DNA of 64,000 bases from Methanobrevibacter sp. YE315 (GTDB lineage: Archaea > Methanobacteriota > Methanobacteria > Methanobacteriales > Methanobacteriaceae), in NCBI RefSeq assembly GCF_001548675.1, contig NZ_CP010834.1, forward strand, positions 2,205,501 through 2,269,500. Reading direction: 5' to 3'. Of this stretch, positions 993-62,396 are shown piece by piece. The translations under genes were made by a program, and so were the position numbers. Within the stretch, counting starts at the first letter, position 1; every line of letters starts with the position of its first letter. Under the pieces are notes generated by a model. The model did no database searches, was not told where the DNA came from, and worked only from the letters and a program-made list of their open reading frames with translations.

Positions 993-1685
993 TTATAATT
1001 TCAATGTTGCAACAGACATTGCCTTAAATCCAACATATATTTCCTTGCCAATATTGAGATTTAATTCCTTTTCAGCAGATACTGTAATATCAGAACATAA
1101 AACAACATTACCAACATTGACCTTAACGCGGATTATTTCGTTTTTGAGTTTCATTTCAACGATTTGGCCTTTAAGTATATTACGAATGCTGGATGTTTGA
1201 GGTTCTAACATTAAAAAGATATTATCATAACTGATTAAAGCCAGTATTCTATCTCCAATTTTATATTTCCTATTTAATGGAGCATTGATTTCAAATTGAT
1301 TCATCTTAATTGTCATTACACCTTTAACATCATTAATGTCGACAATTTCGGCTTCAATTTCATTTACGTCTTTGTGAAGCTCCATAATAGCATTTATTTT
1401 CTTACATTCCTTCAAGATGGAGTAACCTTCTTCTGTGAGTGAAGTTCCTCCGCCTCCACCTTTTCCCCCTTTAGTCGTATTTACAATTTTTACATCAAGT
1501 GTTGATTCCATTTTTTCAATGTAATTTAATGCGGTTCTATATGAAACCTTAATTTCTTTGGCGGCATTTGTTAAAGAACCAGTAACTAAAATTGATTCTA
1601 ACAATTGATATTTCTTACTGTCGAGTAAAAAAGAGTTGCCATCTACATTGATTTTATATTCAACACCCGCTTTTACATCAGCCAT
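993..1685 (-). CDS. modE: ModE-type molybdate/tungstate-responsive regulator
   Basis: A 230-residue DNA-binding regulator with the ModE layout. A LysR-like winged helix spans about residues 25-90 and contains the glycine-rich wing KGGKGGGGG (72-80) followed by SLTEEGY. Two TOBE/Mop-like oxyanion-binding domains follow, at about 107-163 and 166-230. The SSIRNILKG stretch near 165-173 is characteristic of TOBE domains. In characterised homologues the bound oxyanion controls molybdate uptake and molybdoenzyme genes. The ATG is preceded by GGGGGAT, a strong ribosome binding site. No molybdate transporter is in the window, so the targets lie elsewhere. The ferredoxin gene follows directly. Confidence 0.88.
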   Translation of the reverse strand: MADVKAGVEYKINVDGNSFLLDSKKYQLLESILVTGSLTNAAKEIKVSYRTALNYIEKMESTLDVKIVNTTKGGKGGGGGTSLTEEGYSILKECKKINAIMELHKDVNEIEAEIVDINDVKGVMTIKMNQFEINAPLNRKYKIGDRILALISYDNIFLMLEPQTSSIRNILKGQIVEMKLKNEIIRVKVNVGNVVLCSDITVSAEKELNLNIGKEIYVGFKAMSVATLKL

Positions 1686-3992: not shown

Positions 3993-4012
3993 ATTGAAGG
4001 CATTAACCTTCA
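3993..4012 (-). terminator. Terminator of the ExbB/ExbD-like operon
   Basis: TTGAAGG and CCTTCAA form a 7-bp stem with a six-base loop across the stop codon of the DUF2149 gene. An A-rich stretch on the + strand (T-rich on the - strand) lies just downstream. Confidence 0.45.
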
Positions 4013-4341
4013 ACCATAATCAATTTGCCCGTCTCGGTATCACGATACACCTTACCCATTTCAGTGAACCCGCTACCTGAAGACTGACTTATATCCGGAG
4101 TATCGTTTAATTCCTGACCTTGGTCTAGCTGTGAAACTTCATTAATTGCATTTTTAACTTTTTGTCTTTGTTGTTCATCCATATTTTCATTAAATACGAT
4201 ATTCTGCATATTCCATGAAATAACTAGAAATACCAATAACCCCACTGCAATCACTAACATTGCATCAACCAAATTGGATGTTCCGGCCATAGGGTCTTCT
4301 TCACCCTGATTAAGAAATTTTCCTTTTCTTCTGCGAATCAT
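4003..4341 (-). CDS. DUF2149 protein, ExbD/TolR-like
   Basis: A 112-residue protein with one N-terminal membrane segment (about 27-44) and an external, hydrophilic C-terminus. The segment NLVDAMLVIAVGLLVFLV closely resembles the single transmembrane helix of ExbD/TolR/MotB, including an aspartate (Asp26) at its start. In that family the equivalent aspartate carries the proton. Pfam names the family only as DUF2149. The gene follows the ExbB-like gene by ten bases and has a strong AGGAGG site. This pairing supports a role as the second subunit of a proton-driven stator. That function is inference; no archaeal homologue of this type is known to me to be characterised. Confidence 0.8.
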   Translation of the reverse strand: MIRRRKGKFLNQGEEDPMAGTSNLVDAMLVIAVGLLVFLVISWNMQNIVFNENMDEQQRQKVKNAINEVSQLDQGQELNDTPDISQSSGSGFTEMGKVYRDTETGKLIMVEG

Positions 4342-4351
4342 AAAAAACCTC

Positions 4352-5005
4352 CTATTCAGCTAAGTTCTCCAATACAGCATTCACAAACAATTGGAGATTT
4401 GAAGAATACTCCTCATACCATCTGCGCCTGACTTTAGAAATTACATATGCAACAGCGCCAGATCCAATCCCTACAACGGTTGTGTCAAATGCTACAATAA
4501 TCGCATTAGCCAAAGTTGTGACATCACCTGCGCCTAATGCTGCAAGGCCAGGACCCATCGGAATCAATGTACCCATCAATCCTAAAGTAGGGCCTATACG
4601 GGTAACAATATCAACTTTTTCAAGAGATTTAGCCATCTCCACTTCTTCCTCTTCAATTAAATTCAATGCCCAAGCTTCACGAGATTCACCGGACAGTGAA
4701 TGTGCATTAATTATCTTTAACAAAACTTCTTTTTGATTATCATAAATTTTTGAATCATTAACAATATTTGTAAGTTCACCAACGCCATTGGCATTAACCA
4801 GGGAAAAAATCAATTTTTCCTTGTAATCCCTAGTCAATTTAATACGAGTCTTATAATCTGAAATAAGACCTCCAAAAGCAAATACTGCGAAAACCGCAAA
4901 TATAAGCAAGAATATAATTACGGGAATCTGCAAACTCTGAGATACAACATTCAAAGCCGCAGTTAAAAACTCACTACCTGGAATAGCTACCACATATATC
5001 ACCAC
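4352..5005 (-). CDS. MotA/TolQ/ExbB proton-channel family protein
   Basis: A 217-residue membrane protein with the ExbB/TolQ layout: a first membrane segment at about 27-47, a cytoplasmic stretch, and two segments at about 137-158 and 167-190. The signature RIGPTLGLMGTLIPMGPGL (136-154) matches the conserved region around the proton path of ExbB/TolQ. It probably forms a proton channel with the adjoining DUF2149 protein. The start is uncertain. The first in-frame GTG (5005) sits in a GGTGAT ribosome site, and the GTG at 4993 is better spaced from that site. The gene is one base downstream of a polytopic membrane protein gene, so translation is coupled. Confidence 0.88.
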   Translation of the reverse strand: MVIYVVAIPGSEFLTAALNVVSQSLQIPVIIFLLIFAVFAVFAFGGLISDYKTRIKLTRDYKEKLIFSLVNANGVGELTNIVNDSKIYDNQKEVLLKIINAHSLSGESREAWALNLIEEEEVEMAKSLEKVDIVTRIGPTLGLMGTLIPMGPGLAALGAGDVTTLANAIIVAFDTTVVGIGSGAVAYVISKVRRRWYEEYSSNLQLFVNAVLENLAE

Positions 5006-5006
5006 A

Positions 5007-5681
5007 TCATTTTAATAAAGTATTTTTTTTATAATATAATAAACCTAAAACAATAACTACTATCAACAAAGCAATAGTTGCCAAAATATATTCAATTGAA
5101 ACGATATTAATCGGTTTCATGTCTTTCATGTTCAAAGATATAATATTCGGAAGCAGTAATGAAACCATTAATGAATAAATTCCCAATATGAAATACATGC
5201 TTCCTAAGGAGTTATTGGTAATATTTATCAAATTAGATCTTTTACAAAAGTAAAATACTCCAATTATGATTAAATTGAATAAGATTGCTGTAAATAAACT
5301 GATAAATAAAGAATTTAGTCCCAATAAAGATTCTTTTGAACATATGCAAATCAAAGCCAACAGCATGAAAGACAAATAGGATAATAAAATAACTTTTTTA
5401 GTATTATTTTTCCCATTGTTAAATAAATATCCGCTAAACATCAAAAGCAGAGAAATCACAAACAATAAAAGAAAACTATAACTACCTATAGCTGAAATTA
5501 ATTGAACCTTAAAAATATTAATCGCATAAATCAATATGAATGTAAATATAAGGGAAACAATGGAAAATTTAGCCAAATCAATTTTGGAAATATTTTCATA
5601 ACTGATGATTAAACCGATTGCAACAGAAAATATCATTATTGAAATAATAAATCCTAAAGACCACAATAAACTAAAAGCCAT
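5007..5681 (-). CDS. Polytopic membrane protein, possible transporter
   Basis: A 224-residue, almost wholly hydrophobic protein with about seven predicted membrane segments and no obvious catalytic motif. It resembles in size and position the archaeal membrane family DUF2162, but I cannot confirm that by eye. It lies between the His/Ser-rich exported protein (11-base gap) and the ExbB-like gene (1-base gap), so it belongs to the same operon. By context it may be the permease or partner that the ExbB/ExbD-like pair energises; this is inference. The ATG is preceded by GGCGAT. Confidence 0.65.
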   Translation of the reverse strand: MAFSLLWSLGFIISIMIFSVAIGLIISYENISKIDLAKFSIVSLIFTFILIYAINIFKVQLISAIGSYSFLLLFVISLLLMFSGYLFNNGKNNTKKVILLSYLSFMLLALICICSKESLLGLNSLFISLFTAILFNLIIIGVFYFCKRSNLINITNNSLGSMYFILGIYSLMVSLLLPNIISLNMKDMKPINIVSIEYILATIALLIVVIVLGLLYYKKNTLLK

Positions 5682-5692
5682 GATATCGCCAT

Positions 5693-6202
5693 TTATTTTT
5701 TAGAGAATATTTTTGACAGAACAACAGGTATGGAAAATCCGCAGGCCAATGCAACCAATAACAATATGATGTTATTTACGCTAAATAACTCATTTTGATT
5801 ATTCCCATCATCTGAAACATTTGTATTATTAACGCTGCTATTTGTACTATTTACATTTTTAGTAGAATTGCCGCTTACTTCAGATACTGAAGATGAATCT
5901 GAAGAGGGATTTGCACTAGCAGAACCTGAAGATGAATCTGAAGATCCTGAACTAGACGAAGTGGAACCAGAACCACTAGAATAACTTGAACCACCAGAGG
6001 AACTGGAACCAGAACTGGAACTAGATTCACTAGAATAACTTGAACCACCAGATGAACCAGAACCACTTGAAGAAGATGGGACTTCAGATGTCACTTCTTC
6101 AACATATTCTGAACCGTGCCCCGGATGGGCACATACCGCCGTAGCGGCAAAAGATATTATGAAAATTATTGAAATAAATAAAGCTAATTTTTTATACTCC
6201 AT
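5693..6202 (-). CDS. Exported serine-rich protein with His-containing mature N-terminus
   Basis: The start is set at ATG 6202, because GGTGATTTG lies just before it and a signal peptide (MEYKKLALFISIIFIISF...CA) then begins at once. An upstream ATG at 6253 adds 17 unlikely residues. The predicted mature protein begins AHPGHGSEY, a small histidine cluster that could bind a metal. A low-complexity Ser/Gly linker of about 60 residues follows, then an Asn-rich stretch and a C-terminal membrane segment with a lysine tail. It looks like a membrane-anchored stalk carrying a short metal-binding head. It sits between the FmdE surface protein and the membrane components of the operon. The function is unknown. 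Confidence 0.7.
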   Translation of the reverse strand: MEYKKLALFISIIFIISFAATAVCAHPGHGSEYVEEVTSEVPSSSSGSGSSGGSSYSSESSSSSGSSSSGGSSYSSGSGSTSSSSGSSDSSSGSASANPSSDSSSVSEVSGNSTKNVNSTNSSVNNTNVSDDGNNQNELFSVNNIILLLVALACGFSIPVVLSKIFSKK

Positions 6203-6296
6203 CAAATCACCATTAAAACATTTTAATAAATTAAATTTAATTAAATAAATCACTAGAAACTTATTTAATTAAATTTAACTTAAAAAAATAAAAAAT

Positions 6297-6317
6297 AATA
6301 ACTCAAAAAGAGTTATT
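6297..6317 (-). terminator. Hairpin after the FmdE surface protein gene
   Basis: AATAACTC and GAGTTATT form an 8-bp stem with a five-base loop. It is followed by a T-rich - strand run in the gap before the next gene. Because the operon appears to continue, it may act as a partial terminator that lowers expression of the membrane components relative to the surface protein. Confidence 0.5.
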
Positions 6318-6325
6318 AATCAAAA

Positions 6326-9300
6326 CTATTTTTTACGTTTCATATATCCAACACCAAGTACTGCACCAATAGCTAAAACACCAACTAAAGCATAAATTAA
6401 GCTGTTAGAATCTGCAGATTTGGTTGCAGGAGATTTTGAAACTTCATATGATTTTGCAGCGCTTGGACTATCTTTTGAATCTTTAGATTTATCATCAGCG
6501 GATTCATCAACAGCCTCTTCAGCAGTTTGAGCGCTAGCAACTACTGGACTGGAAGTTCCAACACTACTGGAAGATGAATAACTACTTGTTGAACGGGATG
6601 CTGGAGCATATGAATTACTATTGGAATTACTATTAGAGTTAGAATTGCTATTAGAGTTAGTATTAGTGGAATTAGAGTTAGATTCACCACTAGCATCTCC
6701 TTGCATGGATTTTAATAAATCTTCTTTAGAGATGTCATCTAAACTCTTCAAGTAAGTTATAGCATTAAAGTCATCGCCAGCACCTTGTTTTAACATGTTA
6801 AATTGTTCTTCAGTAATCCATCTTTCATCATCTGTTGAAACAACAGGCATTGCTTTAATATGTTCATCTTCAATACCAGCATACATATTAATATATGCTC
6901 TGATTTGGTTAGCACGTGCAGCTTCAGAGGTACTATACATACTGTTGTCGATAGTTGCCCATTTGAAACTAACAGTAGATGCTTTACCTACTTTAAGATT
7001 GTCATCCCATACAACAAGAACACCTTGATAGTTTCCACCTTCAATATATGGAGATATTGTCTCATTGGAAGGTAATTTTTGTACATAAAAAGTACCTAAA
7101 CCTGGAGATAAATCTAATAAATAGGTTAAACTGTCATCTTTACAAAAGATGTTGGATGCAATGTATGTGTATGATTCATTTTCGCCTAACGGATATTTTT
7201 CTTGGATATAATCAGTTATGAAGAATCCTGGCTGTACACCTGGACATACGTGTGCATGGTATAGGAATGTTGCCATTTGATCAAATATAGGGTGTTCATT
7301 CCATGCATTGACAATAGTCTGTACATTAAACCAATTTCCATCAGGAACAAATGATTTTTCAATAGCTCTTAATTTAGTAGCGTTATTTAATGTATCAAAT
7401 CCAATATCAACAACCCTATCACCGTCAAGTTCTCCAACAAAGAAGTCTTTAGTATCCGGATTATATCTTAAATAGACCATATTTACTGCATCAGAGTCAG
7501 GATAACGGAGTGCAAATGCAAACCATAATGGTTTCCATACGGCTTGGTGAAGACTTAATACGTTTTGACTGTATAATGTTCCACCGAATACTTCATAAAG
7601 ACCATCACGTGCAATTACAGTATCTTGACCGTTTAAGAAAGCATAACCTGCATCAGTTAAAGCAAGGAAATCAACATCGTCTCTATCAATATCGATGCCC
7701 AATTCTTCGTTGAATATTTTTTTAGCTTCGTTTGCTGCATCGATACCTATTTGTTTTATTTCAGCATCGGATAATTTTGCTTGAGTATCAGCAGGAGTGG
7801 CTCTTGTAGCTTTATCAAGACCTAAAGATAAAATATATTCTAAATCTAGACCATGTCCGTCAAGACCATATTCTGCTGGTTCACCATCATAAGTTACGTT
7901 TTCAGTAGTTCCCATTAACCAATTGTATTGTTCTTGATTCAATCCTGTAAATTCATATAATATATCGACTAATTTTTCAGGATTCTTATTTATTTGGTCA
8001 ATCCACCAGGAACAGTATTTTAATTCTTCTAAACTACCATCATCAGGATTGATTCCGGTTTCTTTAGTGAACATGTTTTTAAGATTGGTTGAATTAAAGG
8101 TCATGATGATTAGATCACCTGTTTTAGTAGCACTATACCATCTAATAAAACCAATCATGTTTTCGGTAGCACCGGTATTGGTAGTGTTCATACCAGTATA
8201 ACCAGTTTTACCAATTGTATCATCTAAAAAGAATATTGCTGCATCATCATCAGACCCGCCAGGGACACCAAGTACTTTATAAGCAGTAACATCAGCAGGG
8301 GAACCTACTCCACCAGGGTTAGTTTCTTGCTCAGGAGGGTAGTATTTCAATAAAGCTTGAATGATGCTGTATCCGCCTAAAGTACCTTCACAAATATGGC
8401 CATGGAAAGCAGCTTCTTGGAGAATTTCTCTAGAAACACCCGCAGACCAACCATTTGCCAAACTTGCAAATGACCATGCGTTTTCACCAACAACAGCATT
8501 ATAATACTTATTCCAATCTGCTTTGGACATATCTTCAGATATAGTTCCTAAATAGGAATAACTAGTAGATCCGTTTTGGAAAACAATAGCGTTCAATTCT
8601 TTTCCATTTCTAGCAATAAAAGCAAAGTCAACCGGATCAGTAGCACTTTGACGTAGCATTATTACATTGCTGTAAGCTATGCAATTGTGGATGCTTCCGT
8701 AATTAACAATTGCCTCCATCGCGTCTTCACTAAGTTTACCGTTATATTTTGCAACTCCTGCGGTGGTAATTGCAAGAACATCATCTGCATTTTTAAAATC
8801 TAATTTGTTATCAGCAATTTCAGTAACAGTTCTTCCTAATTTATAAGCTTCACTAGCTTTTAAATCAAAGGTAACGATTTTGGATAAATCAGCACCATTA
8901 ATGATTTTTGCTTGGCTGCCATAACCTGCAGTCATGGCGGTAATATTCAATTTACCCCCATTAAAGTTATCTAAACTAAGAACATAATTTCTGTTGTTTA
9001 CATCGTATGTCTTAGTAAAATTAAGATAGGTATTATTTGAAATTAAATAGAAATCTGGAACTAATTCATATGCATCATCAGCATATTCGTAATTAACTTT
9101 TACACTTACTGAAGCAGAATTAGAAGCAGCCTCTACTGCATTTGAACCATCAGCTTGGATATCTGAGATACCATTACCTATAAGAAGACCATTTTGAGAA
9201 TCAAAAAGGGCATCTGTATCGCTTGCAGATACCGCACCAATTACAAGCATTAGACAAGCAATTAGCGTGATAAACAAAACAACCTGTTTTTTAATAATAT

Positions 9301-9328
9301 CGCCTCCAAAATTTGAAAAGATATTCAT
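6326..9328 (-). CDS. Surface-anchored protein with two FmdE-type metal-site motifs
   Basis: A 1000-codon exported protein with a signal peptide (KKQVVLFITLIACLMLVIGAVSA). Two FmdE-like signatures are visible: HGHICEG at 309-315 and HAHVCPG at 691-697. In the FmdE family HxHxC-type residues form a metal site. An Asn/Ser/Thr-rich linker (about 895-960) and a C-terminal membrane segment with tail YMKRKK follow. It is therefore an external two-domain protein, not a cytoplasmic formylmethanofuran dehydrogenase subunit, despite the family name. ATG 9328 has no ribosome site. A perfect GGAGGCGAT sits inside the frame before an ATT codon at 9295, which would give MKK... at once. The gene heads an operon with an ExbB/ExbD-like pair. 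Confidence 0.82.
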   Translation of the reverse strand: MNIFSNFGGDIIKKQVVLFITLIACLMLVIGAVSASDTDALFDSQNGLLIGNGISDIQADGSNAVEAASNSASVSVKVNYEYADDAYELVPDFYLISNNTYLNFTKTYDVNNRNYVLSLDNFNGGKLNITAMTAGYGSQAKIINGADLSKIVTFDLKASEAYKLGRTVTEIADNKLDFKNADDVLAITTAGVAKYNGKLSEDAMEAIVNYGSIHNCIAYSNVIMLRQSATDPVDFAFIARNGKELNAIVFQNGSTSYSYLGTISEDMSKADWNKYYNAVVGENAWSFASLANGWSAGVSREILQEAAFHGHICEGTLGGYSIIQALLKYYPPEQETNPGGVGSPADVTAYKVLGVPGGSDDDAAIFFLDDTIGKTGYTGMNTTNTGATENMIGFIRWYSATKTGDLIIMTFNSTNLKNMFTKETGINPDDGSLEELKYCSWWIDQINKNPEKLVDILYEFTGLNQEQYNWLMGTTENVTYDGEPAEYGLDGHGLDLEYILSLGLDKATRATPADTQAKLSDAEIKQIGIDAANEAKKIFNEELGIDIDRDDVDFLALTDAGYAFLNGQDTVIARDGLYEVFGGTLYSQNVLSLHQAVWKPLWFAFALRYPDSDAVNMVYLRYNPDTKDFFVGELDGDRVVDIGFDTLNNATKLRAIEKSFVPDGNWFNVQTIVNAWNEHPIFDQMATFLYHAHVCPGVQPGFFITDYIQEKYPLGENESYTYIASNIFCKDDSLTYLLDLSPGLGTFYVQKLPSNETISPYIEGGNYQGVLVVWDDNLKVGKASTVSFKWATIDNSMYSTSEAARANQIRAYINMYAGIEDEHIKAMPVVSTDDERWITEEQFNMLKQGAGDDFNAITYLKSLDDISKEDLLKSMQGDASGESNSNSTNTNSNSNSNSNSNSNSNSYAPASRSTSSYSSSSSVGTSSPVVASAQTAEEAVDESADDKSKDSKDSPSAAKSYEVSKSPATKSADSNSLIYALVGVLAIGAVLGVGYMKRKK

Positions 9329-9780
9329 GTGAGAATACCAATTAGTAGTATTTAGTAATACATATATAAATATAATTATTACAATAATTATAAAAAATTA
9401 GTAAAAAGTAATACTTTTTATATTAGTATTAATTTTATAAAAATAGGATATACTTTATTTTAATTCTCCATTAAGCTAAAAACAAATTTTATACCATCTA
9501 TTCGAATGGAAACTAAAATTAATATGTTAATAATATGCAACATAATAATTAACATTGTTATATAATTTTACTGTAAAGACATATTTTTTTAACAAATAAT
9601 ACAATATAATCAGTTCTGACATTTCAAAATAATTATTAAATTAAGGGAATCAAATACGAAAAAAAGCAAACCCTAAAAAATCTGGTACCTCCCATAAAAA
9701 CATTTATATAATTTTAAGAACAATATAAATACGAAAGCTTTTTTTAGGTAAACCTAAAAATCGCCTTCAAAATTTGAAAA

Positions 9781-9815
9781 GTGTTAAATTAGAACAGAAG
9801 ATTCTAGTTTAACAC
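9781..9815. other. Strong 14-bp stem-loop in the control region
   Basis: 9781-9794 pairs with 9802-9815 over 14 positions (13 Watson-Crick plus one G-T/U), with a seven-base loop. A second stem at 9741-9760 (TTTTTAGGT / ACCTAAAAA) lies 20 bases away. The duplicated ribosome-site segment lies between the two stems. The arrangement could be a structured RNA leader or a gene remnant. Confidence 0.45.
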
Positions 9816-10113
9816 AATAATAAAAATTACCGGCCTATTTTTTTTGAAATATGATAAAATAATAACAATCGATACAAAATAAGTATATTAACACTGTTAT
9901 ATTATTTTAATAGAAATATTACAAAATTGAAAAGTAATACCTATGCTATTTTTTGATATAAAAATAAGAATAAAGCCCTTTAATCAAAAAAGTTAATTTA
10001 AGAAGAAATATAAAATTATTACCTAAAAAAAATGATTAAAAAATATCTAAAAAATATTATAAAAATAAGATGCCTGTTCAATAAGTAATAATTTTATCAA
10101 GAAATAATGAAAA

Positions 10114-10147
10114 AAGTAATACGAAATGATATTATATGGTATTACTT
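10114..10147. promoter_or_regulatory. Candidate metal-regulator operator upstream of the cbiM-like gene
   Basis: AAGTAATAC (10114-10122) and GTATTACTT (10139-10147) are perfect inverted half-sites separated by 16 bases. The spacing and the GTA/TAC-type ends recall NikR operators, such as GTATGA-N16-TCATAC in E. coli. It ends 34 bases before the ATG of the cbiM-like gene, where a bound repressor would block transcription. Assignment to NikR is inference. Confidence 0.5.
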
Positions 10148-10181
10148 CAAAACTTATGATGAAACCAAATAAGGTGATAAA

Positions 10182-10805
10182 ATGCATTTGCCAGACGGAA
10201 TAATAAGTTTTGAACAAGCCATGATTTACTGGATTATTACATTAATAATCGTTTCAATATTCTTCTACAAATTCTCTAAAGATGAAAATAAAGAAAAGAG
10301 GATTATATCAATAGCCCTATTCAGCGTTTTTACAATAGTGGTTACCTCATTATCGATTCCATCACCTCTTGGCGTGCCAATCCATTTCTTTTTGATACCA
10401 TTAATAGCCATATTGCTTGGACCTCTTTCCAGCACAATAGTATCCTTTGTCACCTTAATTATGCAGGCATTGGCATTGAATATGGGTGGAATAACTTCCT
10501 TAGGTGCAAATTTTTTAGTAATGGGATTCATATTATCCATAGTCACATATGGATTTTATAAACTGTTCCTAAATATAAATGAAAAGCTTGCAATATTTGG
10601 ATCAACAATTATTGGCATTATCTTTGCTACATTTGGACAGGTAGCCATCTTAGTTATTTCAGGAGCAATGAACTTCGATATATTATTATCAACATTAGTT
10701 CCATTTTACCTATTCATCTCATTTATCGAGGGATTTGCAAATGTAATCATTATAACCGCTATTAAAAAAATAAAACCGGAAATAATAGAAATAAATAAAA
10801 TTTAG
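10182..10805 (+). CDS. CbiM/NikM-like substrate-capture membrane protein of a cobalt/nickel ECF transporter
   Basis: A 207-residue membrane protein that begins MHLPDG, the hallmark N-terminus of CbiM/NikM. There the amino terminus and His2 bind the metal. A second ligand candidate, His68, lies in SPLGVPIHFFLIPLIAILLGP, and the family segment GGITSLGANFLVMG follows. It has six or more membrane helices. The usual partners CbiQ and CbiO are absent from the window. The next gene encodes a small protein with the two-helix topology of CbiN/NikN. The ATG follows GGTGAT. Metal choice (Ni or Co) cannot be told from sequence; the NikR-like operator mildly favours nickel. Confidence 0.85.
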   Translation: MHLPDGIISFEQAMIYWIITLIIVSIFFYKFSKDENKEKRIISIALFSVFTIVVTSLSIPSPLGVPIHFFLIPLIAILLGPLSSTIVSFVTLIMQALALNMGGITSLGANFLVMGFILSIVTYGFYKLFLNINEKLAIFGSTIIGIIFATFGQVAILVISGAMNFDILLSTLVPFYLFISFIEGFANVIIITAIKKIKPEIIEINKI

Positions 10806-10813
10806 GTGATAAA

Positions 10814-11302
10814 ATGAAATATTTCAAAATTACAATATTGTTATTAATTTTCCTTTTAGGAATAACAGCCGTATCTTCACATGGAGTAGATGTAACTGCC
10901 GATACAATGGTTGTTGCTAATGACACCAATGGACAGATTGTTAAAAATATCGCAGATACAAACAATCTCAACATCAGTGTTTATAAATTCACATCCGAAG
11001 ATGAAGTTGCACACATCCTAGAACATAGCATAAACAACACAAACAAGAGAATACTATTTACTGCATATCAAAATACTGCTAACGATTTTCTAAAAGAACA
11101 TCCCGACATGTCAAAAAGAATAATCGTTGTTGACGACGTGAACAATGACACTATCCTAGAAGGGATTCACAATATTATGGATGCGCCAATTGGAAACGCA
11201 TCTAACGAAAACAGCTTCGGATTACCGCTGATAATAGGCATTATAATAGGTACCTTAATAGGAATCGGCTGTGGAATCTATATAATGAAAAAGAAGAATT
11301 AA
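10814..11302 (+). CDS. Small exported protein with N- and C-terminal membrane segments
   Basis: A 162-residue protein with a signal peptide or anchor (about 1-21, ending ITAVSSHG), an external domain of about 110 residues, and a C-terminal membrane helix ending in KKKN. The predicted mature end begins near SHGVDV, so a histidine lies close to the N-terminus, as in the exported protein at 5.7 kb. The gene starts eight bases after the cbiM-like gene with a GGTGAT site, so the two form an operon. The two-helix layout with an external middle resembles CbiN/NikN, the usual small partner of CbiM, but it is longer and I see no sequence match. It may be a functional analogue. Confidence 0.65.
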   Translation: MKYFKITILLLIFLLGITAVSSHGVDVTADTMVVANDTNGQIVKNIADTNNLNISVYKFTSEDEVAHILEHSINNTNKRILFTAYQNTANDFLKEHPDMSKRIIVVDDVNNDTILEGIHNIMDAPIGNASNENSFGLPLIIGIIIGTLIGIGCGIYIMKKKN

Positions 11303-46775: not shown

Positions 46776-49700
46776 TTAACTTTTCCTTTTTAATGACAAA
46801 CCAACGATTGCAAGTAATGATAATAGCACCATTACAATCGGGTTACCTGTTGCATGCATTTTTGGAGTTATTGGAACGTTTACAGGAGGTTCTGTTTCAT
46901 TTCCTGCAGGTTCAATTACATTAACTGTAGCATTATCATAGTTATTGGTTAAATCGCTTTCGTAAGTGTCACAGTAAGTGAGTGCTTCAACAACGATTTC
47001 GCCAGCCACTAATGCTTTGGTGTTGAGTAAGAGTGTAACTTCTTCACCAGGAGCTAAATCTCCAATAGTCCAAATTCCAGTATCTGGGTCATAAGTGCCT
47101 TTAGACGGTTCGAATCCTAAAAGTTGGAGTTCGTCAGGTACAGCTACCAATGCAGTAGAATTAATCGCTGTATCAGGTCCTTGATTAACAACAGTAATAG
47201 TCCAGACTATGTTTTCACCAACAAGGGCTTCAGTGACATCCGGTTCCACACTGATTACTAAATCAGCTTCTGGAGGAACAGTAGTTGAATTGTTACATTT
47301 GTTGTTAGTTTCATTTGGATCGAATGTATCAGAGGTAACGTTTGCAATGTTAATAATGGTTTTATTTGTTGTGTCTACTAAAGTTACGATATTTAAGGTA
47401 GCGGATGCTCCACTAGTAAGATTGCCCACATTCCAGATTCCTAATTCGGAATCATAAGCTCCATTGGAATCATCGCTGAGATACACTACGCCGGCAGGTA
47501 ATTTTTCACTGACAACGGCATTGACTGCAGTATCTCTGCCGTTGTTTGTAACAATGATTGTCCAAGTAATTTTGTCGTTTTTGTGAGGAGTTGAATTAGA
47601 TACCAATTTAATAATCTCTAAGTCAGCTTCAGCAACGACATTTACAGAGCTATTATCCTTATTATTTGTTTCATTAGGATCGTAAGTGTCGGATGTAACG
47701 TTTACAGGGTTTGTAATATTAACATTTGAATCGTTTATAATAGTTACAATATGTAAGGTTACGGATGCTCCACTAGTAAGATTGCCCACATTCCAAACAC
47801 CGGTTTCAGGGTCATATGCTCCATCAGAATCATCAGAAACATATTCCACACCATCTGGCAATTTATCGGTAACGATAGCATTTATGGCATCATTAGGACC
47901 GTGGTTAATGACGGTTATATCCCAATTAAGAGGATCGCCATAATAACATTTTTCTCCTTCATGATCGTTTGATTTGATTACTTCCAAATCAGCTTCAGGA
48001 GGAATTACTAAAGAACTGTTGTCATAATTATTGGATAAGTCTGGATCATAAGTATCGGATGAAACAGAAACGTTTCTATAAACTGTTGCATCTGTAGTAT
48101 TTGCTGTAGTTGTAATCTTTAATGTTACGGTTTCGCCGACAGGCAAGTCTCCAATAGTCCAAACGGCAGTCTCATTATTATAAGCGCCATCGGAATCATC
48201 GGAAACGTAAATCATGCCATCAGGTAAAACGTCTTTAAGAATACTGTTAACAGCGGTGTTTGGGCCGTTGTTAGTAACAGTAATAGTCCAAACCACAGTA
48301 TCACCATTATGACAAGTGTCAGTTGAATTCTCAAAGTTGTTTGTAATAGTAACTGCCAAATCAGCCTCAGGAGGAATGACTAAAGAACTGTTGTCATAAT
48401 TATTAGATAAATCTGGATCATAAGTATCAGATGAAACAGAAACATTTCTATAAACGGTAGCGTTTGTGGTATTTGCTATAGTAGTAATAGTCAAAGTAAC
48501 AGTCTCACCAACAGGCAAGTCACCAATACTCCAAACAGCACTCACATTATCATAAGTACCGTTAGCATTATCATGACTTACATAAATCACGCCATCAGGT
48601 AAAACATCTTCAAGAATACTATTAACAGCAGTGTCAGGACCATTATTAGTAACAGTAATAGTCCAAACCACAGTATCACCATTATGACAAGTAGTATTGG
48701 AATCCTCAAAGTTATTAGTAATAGTAACTGCCAAATCAGCCTCAGGAGGAATGACTAAAGAACTGTTGTCATAATTATTAGATAAATCTGGATCATAAGT
48801 ATCAGATGAAACAGAAACATTTCTATAAACGGTAGCGTTTGTGGTATTTGCTATAGTAGTAATAGTCAAAGTAACAGTCTCACCAACAGGCAAGTCACCA
48901 ATACTCCAAACAGCACTCACATTATCATAAGTACCGTTAGCATTATCATGACTTACATAAATCACGCCATCAGGTAAAACATCTTCAAGAATACTATTAA
49001 CAGCAGTGTCAGGACCATTATTAGTAACAGTAATAGTCCAAACCACAGTATCACCATTATGACAAGTATCAGTGGAATTTTCAAAGTTATTAGTAATAGT
49101 AACCGCTAAATCAGCCTCAGGAGGAACGAAAGTATTGTTAGTTCCATTGTTATTGGACTCATTAGGATCGTAAGTGTCGGAAGTAGTATTGACATTATTA
49201 ACGATAGTAGCATTAGTGGCATTAATGAGTGTTTCGATGATTAAAGTGGCAGATTCACCGAGGGTAAGATTACCTACAGTCCAAATATTATTGGCAAACT
49301 TACCACCACTAACATTAACAACAGCTAAACCACTAGGGATAACATCATTTACAACGACATTCACAGCAGTATCAGGACCATTATTTGTAACGACAATAGT
49401 CCAATTTACCACATCACCTTTATGAGCAGTAACATTAGAAACAGTCTTAATAATACTCAAATCGGCCTCAGGAGGAATGACAATAACATCAGAATCATTA
49501 TTATTACTCATATTAGGATCATAAGTAACACTGGAAACATTTGCCTCATTTACTAGAGACATGTTAGTAGCATTCACTATAGTCCTAATGACTAAAATTT
49601 CAACTTGTTTAAAAGTCATATTGCCAATAGTCCAAGTCTTTCCATCAGCAGACAATTTGCCAGCTGTAATATTAACAACACCATTATAAATCAACTCATC

Positions 49701-52700
49701 TGGTAAAACATCATCAAGAACCGCATCAACTGCAGTATCCGGACCATGATTAACAACAACAATAATCCAATTAACAACATCTCCTTTATGAGCAGACTCG
49801 TTTAATACAGCCTTAATAACTTCCAAATCAGCTTCAGGAGGAATAACAGTATTATTAGTACCGTTATTATTATCCTCATCAGGATCATAAGTATCAGAAG
49901 TCACATTCACATTATTAACAATAGTAGCGTTAGTAGCATTAACAGTAGTTTTAATAACTAAAACTACGGTATCACCACTAGCAACCTCATCAATAAACCA
50001 AATTTCACCATCAAATGAACCATCATCAATACTGACCACACCATCATAAATCAACTCATCAGGGATGACATCAACTACAGTAACATTAACTGCAGCGTTA
50101 GGACCATTGTTATGAACAGTAATAGTCCACTCTACAACATCGCCTTTATGAGCGGAATCATTAGACACAGTCTTATTAATTTCTAAATCAGCAACTGAAA
50201 TGACGAATGTAGTGTTGTTAGCTTCATTATTGGAATGATCTGATTCGTTAGTGGTTGTGTTTACAACGACAAAGTTAGTGTTGTTTCCTTCAGTCATTAA
50301 CTGGGTAACGAATTTAAGAACTTTAGAAGTGTAAGGATCCATGTCACCAACATTCCAAATCAAGATTCCACCACTAACAGTACAATTATCATATTTGCCA
50401 ATGACAGTAGCGTCAACTGGTAATGTATCAGTAACAACTACATCTTCAGCAACACTAGGACCATCATTAGTAACGGTAATAGTCCATTCTACGGATTCGC
50501 CATAGAGCACTTGAGAAGCATTTACTTCTTTTGTGATTGTTACGTCACAAATAGGGTCTACTTGAGTACTGTTTGAAGCGTTGTTATTAGTTGTGTTAGT
50601 TTCGTTAGTAGATGTAACAACATAGACTTTATTGGTTAAATTACCTTCTTTAATTGCTTTAGTAACAACAGTCAAGGTAACATTAGTATACGGTGCAATT
50701 TCACCAATATTCCAAACAAAGCCATCAGCAGTTCTAGTAACATTCTCATAACTACCAACCAAGTCAAGATCTACATCCAAAGTGTCAAAGACATAAACAT
50801 CTTTAGCAACACTAGGACCAAGGTTAGAAACAACAATAGTCCAGGAAACAGACTCATTCAAATTAATAACACTAGCATTAACAGTCTTATTGATCACCAA
50901 ATCACAAATAGGATCAACCTGAGTAGTATTGTTAGCATCATTATTAGTCTTATTAGTCTCATTAGTAGAAGTCACAACAACAACAGTATTGTTCAATTTA
51001 CCCTCTTTAATTGCTTTAGTAACAACAGTCAAGGTAACATTAGTATACGGTGCAATTTCACCAATATTCCAAACAAAACCATTAGCAGCTCTAGTAACAT
51101 TCTCATAATCACCAACTAACACAAGACCATCAACCCAAGTATCAGTCACATTAACATCATATGCAACACTAGGACCAAGGTTAGAAACAACAATAGTCCA
51201 GGAAACAGACTCATTCAAATTAATAACACTAGCATTAACAGTCTTATTGATCACCAAATCACAAATAGGATCAACCTGAGTAGTATTGTTAGCATCATTA
51301 TTAGTCTTATTAGTCTCATTAGTAGAAGTCACAACAACAACAGTATTGTTCAATTTACCCTCTTTAATTGCTTTAGTAACAACAGTCAAGGTAACATTAG
51401 TATACGGTGCAATTTCACCAATATTCCAAACAAAACCATTAGCAGCTCTAGTGACATTCTCATAATCACCAACTAACACAAGACCATCAACCCAAGTATC
51501 AGTCACATTAACATCATATGCAACACTAGGACCAAGGTTAGAAACAACAATAGTCCAGGAAACAGACTCATTCAAATTAATAACACTAGCATTAACAGTC
51601 TTATTGATCACCAAATCACAAATAGGATCAACCTGAGTAGTATTGTTAGCATCATTATTAGTCTTATTAGTCTCATTAGTAGAAGTCACAACAACAACAG
51701 TATTGTTCAATTTACCCTCTTTAGTCGCTTTAGTAACAACAGTCAAGGTAACATTAGTATACGGTGCAATTTCACCAATATTCCAAACAAAACCATTAGC
51801 AGCTCTAGTAACATTCTCATAATCACCAACTAACACAAGACCATCAACCCAAGTATCAGTCACATTAACATCATATGCAACACTAGGACCAAGGTTAGAA
51901 ACAACAATAGTCCAGGAAACAGACTCATTCAAATTAATAACACTAGCATTAACAGTCTTATTGATCACCAAATCACAAATAGGATCAACCTGAGTAGTAT
52001 TGTTAGCATCATTATTAGTCTTATTAGTCTCATTAGTAGAAGTCACAACAACAACAGTATTGTTCAATTTACCCTCTTTAGTCGCTTTAGTAACAACAGT
52101 CAAGGTAACATTAGTATACGGTGCAATTTCACCAATATTCCAAACAAAACCATTAGCAGCTCTAGTGACATTCTCATAATCACCAACTAACACAAGACCA
52201 TCAACCCAAGTATCAGTCACATTAACATCATATGCAACACTAGGACCAAGGTTAGAAACAACAATAGTCCAGGAAACAGACTCATTCAAATTAATAACAC
52301 TAGCATTAACAGTCTTATTGATCACCAAATCACAAATAGGATCAACCTGAGTAGTATTGTTAGCATCATTATTAGTCTTATTAGTCTCATTAGTAGAAGT
52401 CACAACAACAACAGTATTGTTCAATTTACCCTCTTTAGTCGCTTTAGTAACAACAGTCAAGGTAACATTAGTATACGGTGCAATTTCACCAATATTCCAA
52501 ACAAAACCATTAGCAGCTCTAGTAACATTCTCATAATCACCAACTAACACAAGACCATCAACCCAAGTATCAGTCACATTAACATCATATGCAACACTAG
52601 GACCAAGGTTAGAAACAACAATAGTCCAGGAAACAGACTCATTCAAATTAATAACACTAGCATTAACAGTCTTATTGATCACCAAATCACAAATAGGATC

Positions 52701-55700
52701 AACCTGAGTAGTATTGTTAGCATCATTATTAGTCTTATTAGTCTCATTAGTAGAAGTCACAACAACAACAGTATTGTTCAATTTACCCTCTTTAGTCGCT
52801 TTAGTAACAACAGTCAAGGTAACATTAGTATACGGTGCAATTTCACCAATATTCCAAACAAAACCATTAGCAGCTCTAGTGACATTCTCATAATCACCAA
52901 CTAACACAAGACCATCAACCCAAGTATCAGTCACATTAACATCATATGCAACACTAGGACCAAGGTTAGAAACAACAATAGTCCAGGAAACAGACTCATT
53001 CAAATTAATAACACTAGCATTAACAGTCTTATTGATCACCAAATCACAAATAGGATCAACCTGAGTAGTATTGTTAGCATCATTATTAGTCTTATTAGTC
53101 TCATTAGTAGAAGTCACAACAACAACAGTATTGTTCAATTTACCCTCTTTAGTCGCTTTAGTAACAACAGTCAAGGTAACATTAGTATACGGTGCAATTT
53201 CACCAATATTCCAAACAAAACCATTAGCAGCTCTAGTGACATTCTCATAATCACCAACTAACACAAGACCATCAACCCAAGTATCAGTCACATTAACATC
53301 ATATGCAACACTAGGACCAAGGTTAGAAACAACAATAGTCCAGGAAACAGACTCATTCAAATTAATAACACTAGCATTAACAGTCTTATTGATCACCAAA
53401 TCACAAATAGGATCAACCTGAGTAGTATTGTTAGCATCATTATTAGTCTTATTAGTCTCATTAGTAGAAGTCACAACAACAACAGTATTGTTCAATTTAC
53501 CCTCTTTAGTCGCTTTAGTAACAACAGTCAAGGTAACATTAGTATACGGTGCAATTTCACCAATATTCCAAACAAAACCATTAGCAGCTCTAGTGACATT
53601 CTCATAATCACCAACTAACACAAGACCATCAACCCAAGTATCAGTCACATTAACATCATATGCAACACTAGGACCAAGGTTAGAAACAACAATAGTCCAG
53701 GAAACAGACTCATTCAAATTAATAACACTAGCATTAACAGTCTTATTGATCACCAAATCACAAATAGGATCAACCTGAGTAGTATTGTTAGCATCATTAT
53801 TAGTCTTATTAGTCTCATTAGTAGAAGTCACAACAACAACAGTATTGTTCAATTTACCCTCTTTAGTCGCTTTAGTAACAACAGTCAAGGTAACATTAGT
53901 ATACGGTGCAATTTCACCAATATTCCAAACAAAACCATTAGCAGCTCTAGTGACATTCTCATAATCACCAACTAACACAAGACCATCAACCCAAGTATCA
54001 GTCACATTAACATCATATGCAACACTAGGACCAAGGTTAGAAACAACAATAGTCCAGGAAACAGACTCATTCAAATTAATAACACTAGCATTAACAGTCT
54101 TATTGATCACCAAATCACAAATAGGATCAACCTGAGTAGTATTGTTAGCATCATTATTAGTCTTATTAGTCTCATTAGTAGAAGTCACAACAACAACAGT
54201 ATTGTTCAATTTACCCTCTTTAATTGCTTTAGTAACAACAGTCAAGGTAACATTAGTATACGGTGCAATTTCACCAATATTCCAAACAAAACCATTAGCA
54301 GCTCTAGTAACATTCTCATAATCACCAACTAACACAAGACCATCAACCCAAGTATCAGTCACATTAACATCATATGCAACACTAGGACCAAGGTTAGAAA
54401 CAACAATAGTCCAGGAAACAGACTCATTCAAATTAATAACACTAGCATTAACAGTCTTATTGATCACCAAATCACAAATAGGATCAACCTGAGTAGTATT
54501 GTTAGCATCATTATTAGTCTTATTAGTCTCATTAGTAGAAGTCACAACAACAACAGTATTGTTCAATTTACCCTCTTTAGTCGCTTTAGTAACAACAGTC
54601 AAGGTAACATTAGTATACGGTGCAATTTCACCAATATTCCAAACAAAACCATTAGCAGCTCTAGTGACATTCTCATAATCACCAACTAACACAAGACCAT
54701 CAACCCAAGTATCAGTCACATTAACATCATATGCAACACTAGGACCAAGGTTAGAAACAACAATAGTCCAGGAAACAGACTCATTCAAATTAATAACACT
54801 AGCATTAACAGTCTTATTGATCACCAAATCACAAATAGGATCAACCTGAGTAGTATTGTTAGCATCATTATTAGTCTTATTAGTCTCATTAGTAGAAGTC
54901 ACAACAACAACAGTATTGTTCAATTTACCCTCTTTAGTCGCTTTAGTAACAACAGTCAAGGTAACATTAGTATACGGTGCAATTTCACCAATATTCCAAA
55001 CAAAACCATTAGCAGCTCTAGTGACATTCTCATAATCACCAACTAACACAAGACCATCAACCCAAGTATCAGTCACATTAACATCATATGCAACACTAGG
55101 ACCAAGGTTAGAAACAACAATAGTCCAGGAAACAGACTCATTCAAATTAATAACACTAGCATTAACAGTCTTATTGATCACCAAATCACAAATAGGATCA
55201 ACCTGAGTAGTATTGTTAGCATCATTATTAGTCTTATTAGTCTCATTAGTAGAAGTCACAACAACAACAGTATTGTTCAATTTACCCTCTTTAGTCGCTT
55301 TAGTAACAACAGTCAAGGTAACATTAGTATACGGTGCAATTTCACCAATATTCCAAACAAAACCATTAGCAGCTCTAGTGACATTCTCATAATCACCAAC
55401 TAACACAAGACCATCAACCCAAGTATCAGTCACATTAACATCATATGCAACACTAGGACCAAGGTTAGAAACAACAATAGTCCAGGAAACAGACTCATTC
55501 AAATTAATAACACTAGCATTAACAGTCTTATTGATCACCAAATCACAAATAGGATCAACCTGAGTAGTATTGTTAGCATCATTATTAGTCTTATTAGTCT
55601 CATTAGTAGAAGTCACAACAACAACAGTATTGTTCAATTTACCCTCTTTAGTCGCTTTAGTAACAACAGTCAAGGTAACATTAGTATACGGTGCAATTTC

Positions 55701-58700
55701 ACCAATATTCCAAACAAAACCATTAGCAGCTCTAGTGACATTCTCATAATCACCAACTAACACAAGACCATCAACCCAAGTATCAGTCACATTAACATCA
55801 TATGCAACACTAGGACCAAGGTTAGAAACAACAATAGTCCAGGAAACAGACTCATTCAAATTAATAACACTAGCATTAACAGTCTTATTGATCACCAAAT
55901 CACAAATAGGATCAACCTGAGTAGTATTGTTAGCATCATTATTAGTCTTATTAGTCTCATTAGTAGAAGTCACAACAACAACAGTATTGTTCAATTTACC
56001 CTCTTTAATTGCTTTAGTAACAACAGTCAAGGTAACATTAGTATACGGTGCAATTTCACCAATATTCCAAACAAAACCATTAGCAGCTCTAGTGACATTC
56101 TCATAATCACCAACTAACACAAGACCATCAACCCAAGTATCAGTCACATTAACATCATATGCAACACTAGGACCAAGGTTAGAAACAACAATAGTCCAGG
56201 AAACAGACTCATTCAAATTAATAACACTAGCATTAACAGTCTTATTGATCACCAAATCACAAATAGGATCAACCTGAGTAGTATTGTTAGCATCATTATT
56301 AGTCTTATTAGTCTCATTAGTAGAAGTCACAACAACAACAGTATTGTTCAATTTACCCTCTTTAATTGCTTTAGTAACAACAGTCAAGGTAACATTAGTA
56401 TACGGTGCAATTTCACCAATATTCCAAACAAAACCATTAGCAGCTCTAGTGACATTCTCATAATCACCAACTAACACAAGACCATCAACCCAAGTATCAG
56501 TCACATTAACATCATATGCAACACTAGGACCAAGGTTAGAAACAACAATAGTCCAGGAAACAGACTCATTCAAATTAATAACACTAGCATTAACAGTCTT
56601 ATTGATCACCAAATCACAAATAGGATCAACCTGAGTAGTATTGTTAGCATCATTATTAGTCTTATTAGTCTCATTAGTAGAAGTCACAACAACAACAGTA
56701 TTGTTCAATTTACCCTCTTTAGTCGCTTTAGTAACAACAGTCAAGGTAACATTAGTATACGGTGCAATTTCACCAATATTCCAAACAAAACCATTAGCAG
56801 CTCTAGTGACATTCTCATAATCACCAACTAACACAAGACCATCAACCCAAGTATCAGTCACATTAACATCATATGCAACACTAGGACCAAGGTTAGAAAC
56901 AACAATAGTCCAGGAAACAGACTCATTCAAATTAATAACACTAGCATTAACAGTCTTATTGATCACCAAATCACAAATAGGATCAACCTGAGTAGTATTG
57001 TTAGCATCATTATTAGTCTTATTAGTCTCATTAGTAGAAGTCACAACAACAACAGTATTGTTCAATTTACCCTCTTTAGTCGCTTTAGTAACAACAGTCA
57101 AGGTAACATTAGTATACGGTGCAATTTCACCAATATTCCAAACAAAACCATTAGCAGCTCTAGTGACATTCTCATAATCACCAACTAACACAAGACCATC
57201 AACCCAAGTATCAGTCACATTAACATCATATGCAACACTAGGACCAAGGTTAGAAACAACAATAGTCCAGGAAACAGACTCATTCAAATTAATAACACTA
57301 GCATTAACAGTCTTATTGATCACCAAATCACAAATAGGATCAACCTGAGTAGTATTGTTAGCATCATTATTAGTCTTATTAGTCTCATTAGTAGAAGTCA
57401 CAACAACAACAGTATTGTTCAATTTACCCTCTTTAGTCGCTTTAGTAACAACAGTCAAGGTAACATTAGTATACGGTGCAATTTCACCAATATTCCAAAC
57501 AAAACCATTAGCAGCTCTAGTGACATTCTCATAATCACCAACTAACACAAGACCATCAACCCAAGTATCAGTCACATTAACATCATATGCAACACTAGGA
57601 CCAAGGTTAGAAACAACAATAGTCCAGGAAACAGACTCATTCAAATTAATAACACTAGCATTAACAGTCTTATTGATCACCAAATCACAAATAGGATCAA
57701 CCTGAGTAGTATTGTTAGCATCATTATTAGTCTTATTAGTCTCATTAGTAGAAGTCACAACAACAACAGTATTGTTCAATTTACCCTCTTTAGTCGCTTT
57801 AGTAACAACAGTCAAGGTAACATTAGTATACGGTGCAATTTCACCAATATTCCAAACAAAACCATTAGCAGCTCTAGTGACATTCTCATAATCACCAACT
57901 AACACAAGACCATCAACCCAAGTATCAGTCACATTAACATCATATGCAACACTAGGACCAAGGTTAGAAACAACAATAGTCCAGGAAACAGACTCATTCA
58001 AATTAATAACACTAGCATTAACAGTCTTATTGATCACCAAATCACAAATAGGATCAACCTGAGTAGTATTGTTAGCATCATTATTAGTCTTATTAGTCTC
58101 ATTAGTAGAAGTCACAACAACAACAGTGTTATTCAATTTACCTTCTTTAACAGCCTTAGTGACAATACTAAGCACTTTAGAAGTGTAAGGATCAATATCA
58201 CCAACAGTCCAAGTTAAAACTTGACCATTAACAACAACACCTTCAGAAGTGTAATCACCAACTAACTCAAGACCATCATCCAAAGTATCAGTCACAACAA
58301 CATCTTTAGCAACACTAGGACCAAGGTTAGTAACATTAATAGTCCAAGAAACAGACTCATTCAAATTAATAACACTAGCATTAACAGTCTTGTTAATCAC
58401 CAAATCACAAATAGGATCAACAGTGACATTAGCAGTATCATTGGTTTCATTAGTCCTATTTGATTTAGCAGTAACATTATTAACTAAAGTACCATTAGTT
58501 AAAACTTTAAACCAAATAGTAAAAGTAGCATTAGTACCGTTGACAAGAGTAGGACCATAAGTGAAAACATTACTGCTGTTAGTCCAACCTTCACCAGTAG
58601 CCTTGAGATACTTTAACTCAGTAGAATTAAATAACTCGGTAACAGTCACATTAGTAAGATTACAATCACCAGTGTTAGTTACAGTAATATTAAACGCAAC

Positions 58701-62318: not shown

Positions 62319-62396
62319 AAATTTACCTCACATTTAAAACAATTTTATTCTGTTTAACTTTTTTTTAATGAAAAAGTTTTTATCAAAAAAATCTAG

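Follow-up and report, generated by a model that had tools for sequence, protein, structure and literature searches.

Motors of the ExbB/ExbD type are familiar chiefly from bacteria that have two membranes, and a methanogen such as Methanobrevibacter is expected to have a single membrane and a pseudomurein wall; what, then, would such a motor act on in this organism? The question is raised by a seven-gene locus of the gut methanogen Methanobrevibacter sp. YE315, located in a 64,000-bp stretch of the chromosome (hereafter the window), in which genes for an ExbB-type channel protein, a DUF2149 protein and a DUF2162 membrane protein (the motor genes) stand beside genes for an exported protein with two FmdE domains (FmdE2), a serine-rich exported protein (HisSer), a CbiM/NikM-type permease subunit and a small membrane protein (N162) (table 1). 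Methane cannot be formed without nickel, and the ways in which methanogens acquire this metal are poorly known (PMC10617489). We propose that FmdE2, HisSer, CbiM and N162 probably constitute a conserved capture and uptake unit of the nickel/cobalt type; that this unit is energized by a motor encoded locally or in trans is a proposal whose chances we regard as even.

The host genome is a single contig of 2,273,296 bp, and families were assigned with Pfam profiles, all matched window genes scoring well above cut-off. An initial annotation had delineated seven open reading frames (ORFs) and claimed families for them; all seven were recovered at the same coordinates, and the Pfam matches confirmed the families. 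The five minus-strand genes are separated by gaps of 72, 11, 1 and 10 bp, and CbiM and N162 by 8 bp. HisSer and N162 matched no Pfam family; both are kept in sequence and position among relatives. As listed, the HisSer ORF extends to 6253 with a GTG start (186 aa); because its homologues start at an internal ATG near 6202, the GTG start is probably about 17 codons too long and the ATG is preferred.

Linkage, metal sites and candidate operator

Profiles made from the window genes served to identify the neighbors at each locus, some of the FmdE2 loci being near-copies of one another (loci and genomes are cited by our L and G numbers). Whole-FmdE2 relatives, the nearest named ones from Methanobrevibacter, were confined to Methanobacteriales except at L104 and L109. 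The divergent arrangement of the window recurred at L044, L048, L090, L091 and L094, and in Methanosphaera-type loci the seven genes formed one same-strand run (L058, L079, L111, L175 and L176, also L104, L112, L113 and L166). Of the 37 FmdE2 loci, 25 had CbiM no more than 5 kb away from FmdE2; the other 12 comprised three of the Methanothermobacter type, five in which the contig stops no more than 0.6 kb away on one side, one on a short contig, and three that truly lacked a nearby CbiM (L109, L153 and L157). Because the linkage recurs in this way, both in same-strand runs and in 25 of 37 loci, CbiM and N162 are real members of the unit, and there is strong evidence that FmdE2-HisSer and CbiM-N162 belong together. 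The conserved adjacency to CbiM for which the initial annotation had suggested a search was found, the gene set recurring as a unit that includes CbiM and the small protein. Chance co-location was also considered, and was ruled out by recurrence in several genera. L104 and L109 are contigs of metagenome-assembled genomes labelled Bacillales and actinobacterium that carry the FmdE2 operon or a relative of it; they are likely mis-binned, or else reflect transfer. At L112, L113 and L166, two FmdE2 genes lie close together.

In the FmdE structure 2GLZ, mixed Zn and Ni is held by His15, His17, Cys19 and Cys55 (PMC2954224). Among 30 FmdE2 sequences, H309, H311 and C313 of domain 1 and H691, H693, C695 and C729 of domain 2 were invariant, and the fourth position of domain 1 was an invariant serine (Ser359), not cysteine. 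Domain 2 therefore keeps all four Ni/Zn ligands of the solved FmdE and domain 1 three, so that both HxHxC motifs described in the initial annotation are present but the first is without the fourth known ligand. An AlphaFold model of FmdE2 (predicted template modelling score, pTM, 0.75) had 2glz as its top structure match (E 1.5e-3); a profile search of FmdE2 against solved structures returned low-complexity matches only. The ligand alignment and the model agree with the earlier view of the FmdE domains as metal sites, with a Ni/Zn-type site kept. FmdE2 thus shares HxHxC and a fourth cysteine (in domain 2) with the FmdE family PF02663 (2GLZ, 2GVI), but the solved proteins are small and one- or two-domain, whereas FmdE2 carries its two domains, the first lacking the fourth cysteine, in an exported, anchored protein of 1000 aa. 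FmdE genes mostly adjoin metal transporters (PMC2954224). Histidines also recur near the mature N-termini of the two unassigned proteins, with signal cleavage sites assigned by eye: HPGH follows the hydrophobic N-terminus in 33/33 HisSer homologues, and HG follows the first hydrophobic segment in 26/26 N162 homologues.

Aligned with the two other CbiM/NikM proteins of the genome, the window CbiM keeps the N-terminal Met-His and the second conserved histidine that are found in the CbiM subunits of NikMNQO, NikKMLQO and CbiMNQO transporters. N162, which adjoined CbiM in the loci read, has the topology of CbiN/NikN, so that the locus also possesses a two-helix partner resembling these subunits. 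Exported helpers are a further likeness, NikK and NikL having been proposed as such (PMC545781). Unlike NikMNQO and CbiMNQO systems, the locus has helpers that match no known family, adds FmdE2 and the motor, and showed no Q or O transporter gene among the ORFs around it; at two other loci in the genome, CbiM/NikM genes are accompanied by N-like and Q-like genes.

A perfect palindrome upstream of CbiM is the sole perfect copy in the 2.27-Mb genome, and other loci have it at -58 to -68 relative to CbiM (L090, L091, L094 and L100) or near FmdE2 (L110). Across 41 genomes of the genus, three of the five perfect copies are these CbiM sites. Five half-sites fall in the 853-bp intergenic region (0.14 expected), and four surround the start of the NikM-type locus of the genome; the half-site scan found none at its cobalt-type CbiM (CbiMNQO) locus. 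A whole-genome operator search at two mismatches gave counts at or below background, leaving the perfect site and its conservation as the informative evidence, and an Rfam search of the intergenic region found no riboswitch. The genome holds one NikR gene. The motif differs from known NikR boxes, which in delta-proteobacteria include GTAACAC-N13-GTGTTAC (PMC545781).

Table 1. Features of the locus and of its flank (window coordinates)
Feature	Coordinates	Strand	Basis or context
DUF2149 protein (HmuV-like, ExbD position)	4003..4341	-	Pfam DUF2149, 78 bits
ExbB/TolQ/MotA-type channel protein (HmuU-like)	4352..5005	-	Pfam PF01618 MotA_ExbB, 41.3 bits, cut-off 22.9
DUF2162 multi-helix membrane protein, without PCPCC motif	5007..5681	-	Pfam DUF2162, 54 bits
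HisSer: exported, Ser-rich, C-terminal anchor, mature N-terminus HPGHG	5693..6202	-	Homologue alignment
FmdE2: exported, C-anchored, 1000 aa, two FmdE domains	6326..9328	-	Pfam FmdE, 62 bits, two stretches
CbiM/NikM-type Ni/Co permease subunit	10182..10805	+	Pfam PF01891 CbiM, 145.5 bits
N162: small, two predicted membrane segments, mature N-terminus HGVD	10814..11302	+	Homologue alignment
Perfect palindrome GTAATAC-N16-GTATTAC, candidate NikR-type operator, -66 of CbiM	10116..10145		Genome search and conservation
Two GTAATAC half-sites (9355, 9408), FmdE2 promoter region	9355..9414		Half-site scan
Further GTAATAC half-site, intergenic	9934..9940		Half-site scan
ModE-type regulator with TOBE domain	993-1685		In hisB-ferredoxin-ModE-flippase-FMN reductase string

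Motor genes and their partners

The ExbB-like channel described in the initial annotation was upheld: T146 and T176 of the window protein aligned with the pore threonines T148 and T181 of Escherichia coli ExbB, T146 being invariant and T176 nearly so among 26 sequences, and a model of a close homologue from L094 matched ExbB chains first (E 3.8e-5). This model was made from a fused ExbB-DUF2149 reading in which TAG was read as Gln as a modelling device, and only its ExbB fold match was used. The DUF2149 protein has one membrane helix, which contains Asp26, and a conserved C-terminal tail (VYxDxxTGKLIMV); within the NxxDxMLV motif, N23, D26, M28, L29 and V30 were invariant in 30 sequences. The claim that this helix mimics that of ExbD stands insofar as D26 aligns with D25 of E. 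coli ExbD, but there is no profile match to ExbD, and Pfam assigns the protein to DUF2149, not to ExbD; DUF2149 may work like ExbD, with a likeness in one helix only. The system accordingly shares with the ExbB/ExbD, TolQ/TolR and MotA/MotB motors the ExbB fold, the pore threonines and the DxMLV core of ExbD, but differs in that no more than about 70 residues of DUF2149 lie outside the membrane and in that the host should have a single membrane.

In the 96 Methanobacteriota genomes searched, a DUF2149 gene was present in 89, with 1 to 6 copies per genome, and in the loci read it sat with DUF2162 and ExbB. The YE315 genome has three. Its third motor copy, at L033 8146-17208 (G000:C1 about 196-205 kb), accompanies an FmdE protein and a BtuFCD-type ATP-binding cassette (ABC) transporter, together with ModE-like and FdhD-like genes, FdhC and a formate dehydrogenase subunit, possibly a molybdenum/tungsten (Mo/W) cluster. 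In one group of motors, the large neighbor is an exported, C-anchored relative of CobN/Mg-chelatase (by Pfam; hereafter CobN). The gene order is FmdE2-CobN-motor in Methanothermobacter-type genomes and FmdE2-HisSer-CbiM-N162-CobN-motor at L097. At one chromosomal site of Methanobrevibacter, CobN-motor (L152, L154 and L156) alternates with FmdE2-HisSer-motor (the window, L157, L044 and L048); the swap site stands before the string of flavin mononucleotide (FMN) reductase, flippase and ModE genes, with extra ORFs intervening in L152. In a tree built from ExbB and DUF2149, the window clade consisted of nine rows, all FmdE2-linked (9/9), with a support of 100 and as sister to a CobN clade, and the well supported branches meant that the FmdE2 label must have changed five or more times. 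With 1 to 6 copies in a genome and a wide range of partners, the motor is not specific to this Ni/Co system; the motor that the initial annotation saw as feeding a surface metal-binding protein is indeed linked to FmdE2 but elsewhere stands with CobN and many others. The sole CobN of the YE315 genome, at L089 766-5682 (G000:C1 about 2.117-2.121 Mb), is surface-anchored with a YEL box and lies about 90 kb from the window locus; since none of the three DUF2149 genes is near it, a motor acting in trans is likely for this CobN. In two Methanothermobacter-type genomes (L144 11670-16593 and L146 11609-16486), CobN is split into several same-strand ORFs, which is frame damage or sequence error.

The partner was also reflected in DUF2162. 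Its PCPCC motif was present in 23/23 CobN-containing loci versus 3/18 FmdE2 loci without CobN (Fisher p 1e-8, the rows being related by descent), and it was kept where CbiM and CobN coexist (L097 and L180), so that PCPCC follows the presence of CobN and not a lack of CbiM. That the motif works with CobN in redox chemistry or in passing on metal would be a guess. A plasmid search for DUF2162 relatives found none.

To judge from gene order, the DUF2162-ExbB-DUF2149 trio is modular and would be the archaeal equivalent of HmuT-U-V, and it frequently adjoins CobN/HmuS-like chelatases of the cell surface. In hmuYRSTUV of Bacteroidota, the gene for an exported metal-handling protein is followed, in the same order, by those for a membrane protein, a member of the ExbB family and a DUF2149 protein (PMC10434189, PMC12583661), and HmuV is itself annotated as DUF2149 (PMC10434189). 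The archaeal CobN-DUF2162-ExbB-DUF2149 loci parallel HmuS-T-U-V, with HmuT and DUF2162 paired by gene position. The archaeal system differs in having no outer membrane, TonB receptor or HmuY, and the window locus has FmdE2-HisSer instead of CobN, plus CbiM-N162. HmuS of Bacteroidota has been shown to act as a haem de-chelatase, whereas archaea are without complete hmu operons and the role of their HmuS/CobN homologues has been called unclear (PMC12583661).

In FmdE2 and most surface CobN proteins, the C-terminal anchor is preceded, at a distance of 12-19 residues, by an x-YE[VIL] box (YEVSK, juxtamembrane, in the window FmdE2). YE[VI] is kept in nearly all full-length FmdE2, and the remaining CobN carry IEIN, AEIN, VEVT or HEL variants. 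The box also occurs in unrelated surface proteins near motors (L164; L060, Ig-like; L062 and L072, DUF11; L080, beta-helix; L069/L173/L181), and NosD-type partners beside motors lack it. A scan of 0.91 of the 2.27 Mb of the YE315 genome found the box in 2 of 15 C-anchored secreted proteins, namely FmdE2 and the single CobN, a pair that would be picked by chance in about 1 of 105 cases. The YEV box may be a coupling site between motor and surface partner, hypothetically with a role like that of the TonB box. The window also contains, at 46779-62327 on the minus strand, a 5183-codon open frame whose adhesin-like product, secreted and C-anchored, lacks the YEV motif.

Proposed mechanism and alternative explanations

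Building on the observed gene content, linkage, ligands and motifs, ExbB fold, motif distribution and operator conservation, we proposed the following scheme. Through its complete FmdE site, FmdE2, anchored outside the membrane, would bind metal or remove it from an external ligand; the relay would be HisSer, acting as a flexible, tethered arm that starts with HPGHG; and CbiM, with N162 acting like CbiN/NikN, would move the metal across the membrane, the energy-coupling factor (ECF) energy module probably being shared from another locus. The ExbB-DUF2149 proton motor with DUF2162 would drive capture or release, acting on FmdE2 via the YEV segment. We infer the identity of the metal, the direction of transfer and all energy coupling, and as a whole this account of motor-driven extracytoplasmic acquisition of nickel (less likely cobalt) is, in our judgment, about equally likely to be right or wrong.

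Several observations weigh against it. FmdE2-CbiM loci without a local motor were found at L096, L101, L103, L105, L106 and L110, for which reason the energization of FmdE2 is put forward conditionally; a motor gene was present somewhere in 9 of the 10 FmdE2 genomes checked, and none was found in the remaining genome, G060 (locus L096). The pairwise similarity of DUF2149 and ExbD covers one helix of 20 columns (E 0.012), and a DUF2149 profile search against solved structures up to E 10 found no ExbD/TolR chain. Outside FmdE2 and CobN, the in-locus Fisher test of the YEV-type box was not significant (p 0.78). NikR of Methanothermobacter may sense zinc instead (PMC3087415), and NikR in this order might do likewise; thus, we infer NikR as the regulator of the candidate operator. 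The ModE and FMN reductase neighbors, as well as the ABC-FdhC-formate dehydrogenase cluster of the other FmdE gene, could point to Mo/W. Of the proton-driven Ni/Co capture handed to CbiM that the initial annotation had envisaged, the unit, its CbiM linkage and the Ni/Zn-type site therefore stood, but the motor proved not Ni/Co-specific and was locally absent from six loci.

These absences would be explained if FmdE2-HisSer-CbiM-N162 were complete without energization, the motor serving CobN-type proteins in trans and having remained at the locus after loss of CobN. The presence of CobN and motor at the same site in relatives, and of the sole, YEL-bearing CobN of the genome far from any DUF2149 gene, would fit this explanation, which we nevertheless consider rather unlikely: motor and FmdE2 were linked in several distinct regions of the motor tree, the window motor clade was exclusively FmdE2-linked, and nearly all full-length FmdE2 keep the YE[VI] motif. 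Still less probable is salvage of F430 or corrinoids, in which the motor would power a surface de-chelatase and FmdE2 would extract the metal or accept it from CobN. The adjacency of FmdE2 to surface CobN and motor in Methanothermobacter and L097 speaks for such salvage, as does the demonstrated activity of HmuS, but the substrate of the archaeal CobN homologues is not established (PMC12583661), and the window locus has no CobN.

Acquisition of Mo/W, with FmdE2 binding a Mo/W species under the control of the neighboring ModE and CbiM taking a substrate other than Ni/Co, appears very improbable. The ModE-TOBE gene does recur near FmdE2 loci, including L106 and L110, and the other FmdE protein of the genome sits with ModE-like, FdhC and formate dehydrogenase genes at L033. 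However, the hisB-ferredoxin-ModE-flippase string flanks CobN loci too, and its position may therefore be plain gene order; the palindrome half-sites are common to the NikM locus; and CbiM/NikM S components are not known to have substrates beyond Ni/Co.

Implications for surface metal handling

Our preferred account of motor-driven nickel acquisition can be extended, tentatively and with the chances against it, to Methanobacteriales in general: a partner-swapping proton motor in a single membrane would act on surface proteins of unrelated folds (CobN/HmuS-like chelatases, FmdE2, Ig-like and beta-helix proteins), would recognize many of them by a short YE[VIL] box beside the membrane anchor, and would use proton flow to strip metals or pass them on. 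If this is true, the TonB role that such motors have at an outer membrane would be a single application of a broader device for handling metals. In current schemes HmuTUV powers a TonB receptor (PMC12583661); an ExbB-type motor exchanged between surface CobN and FmdE in single-membrane archaea would alter this reading of HmuTUV in gut Bacteroidota and would hint at what the HmuS/CobN homologues of archaea do. Direct mutational tests are possible for the YEV box as well as for the association of PCPCC with CobN. If the proposal holds, archaea with one membrane may likewise draw on proton power to collect scarce metals at their surface.

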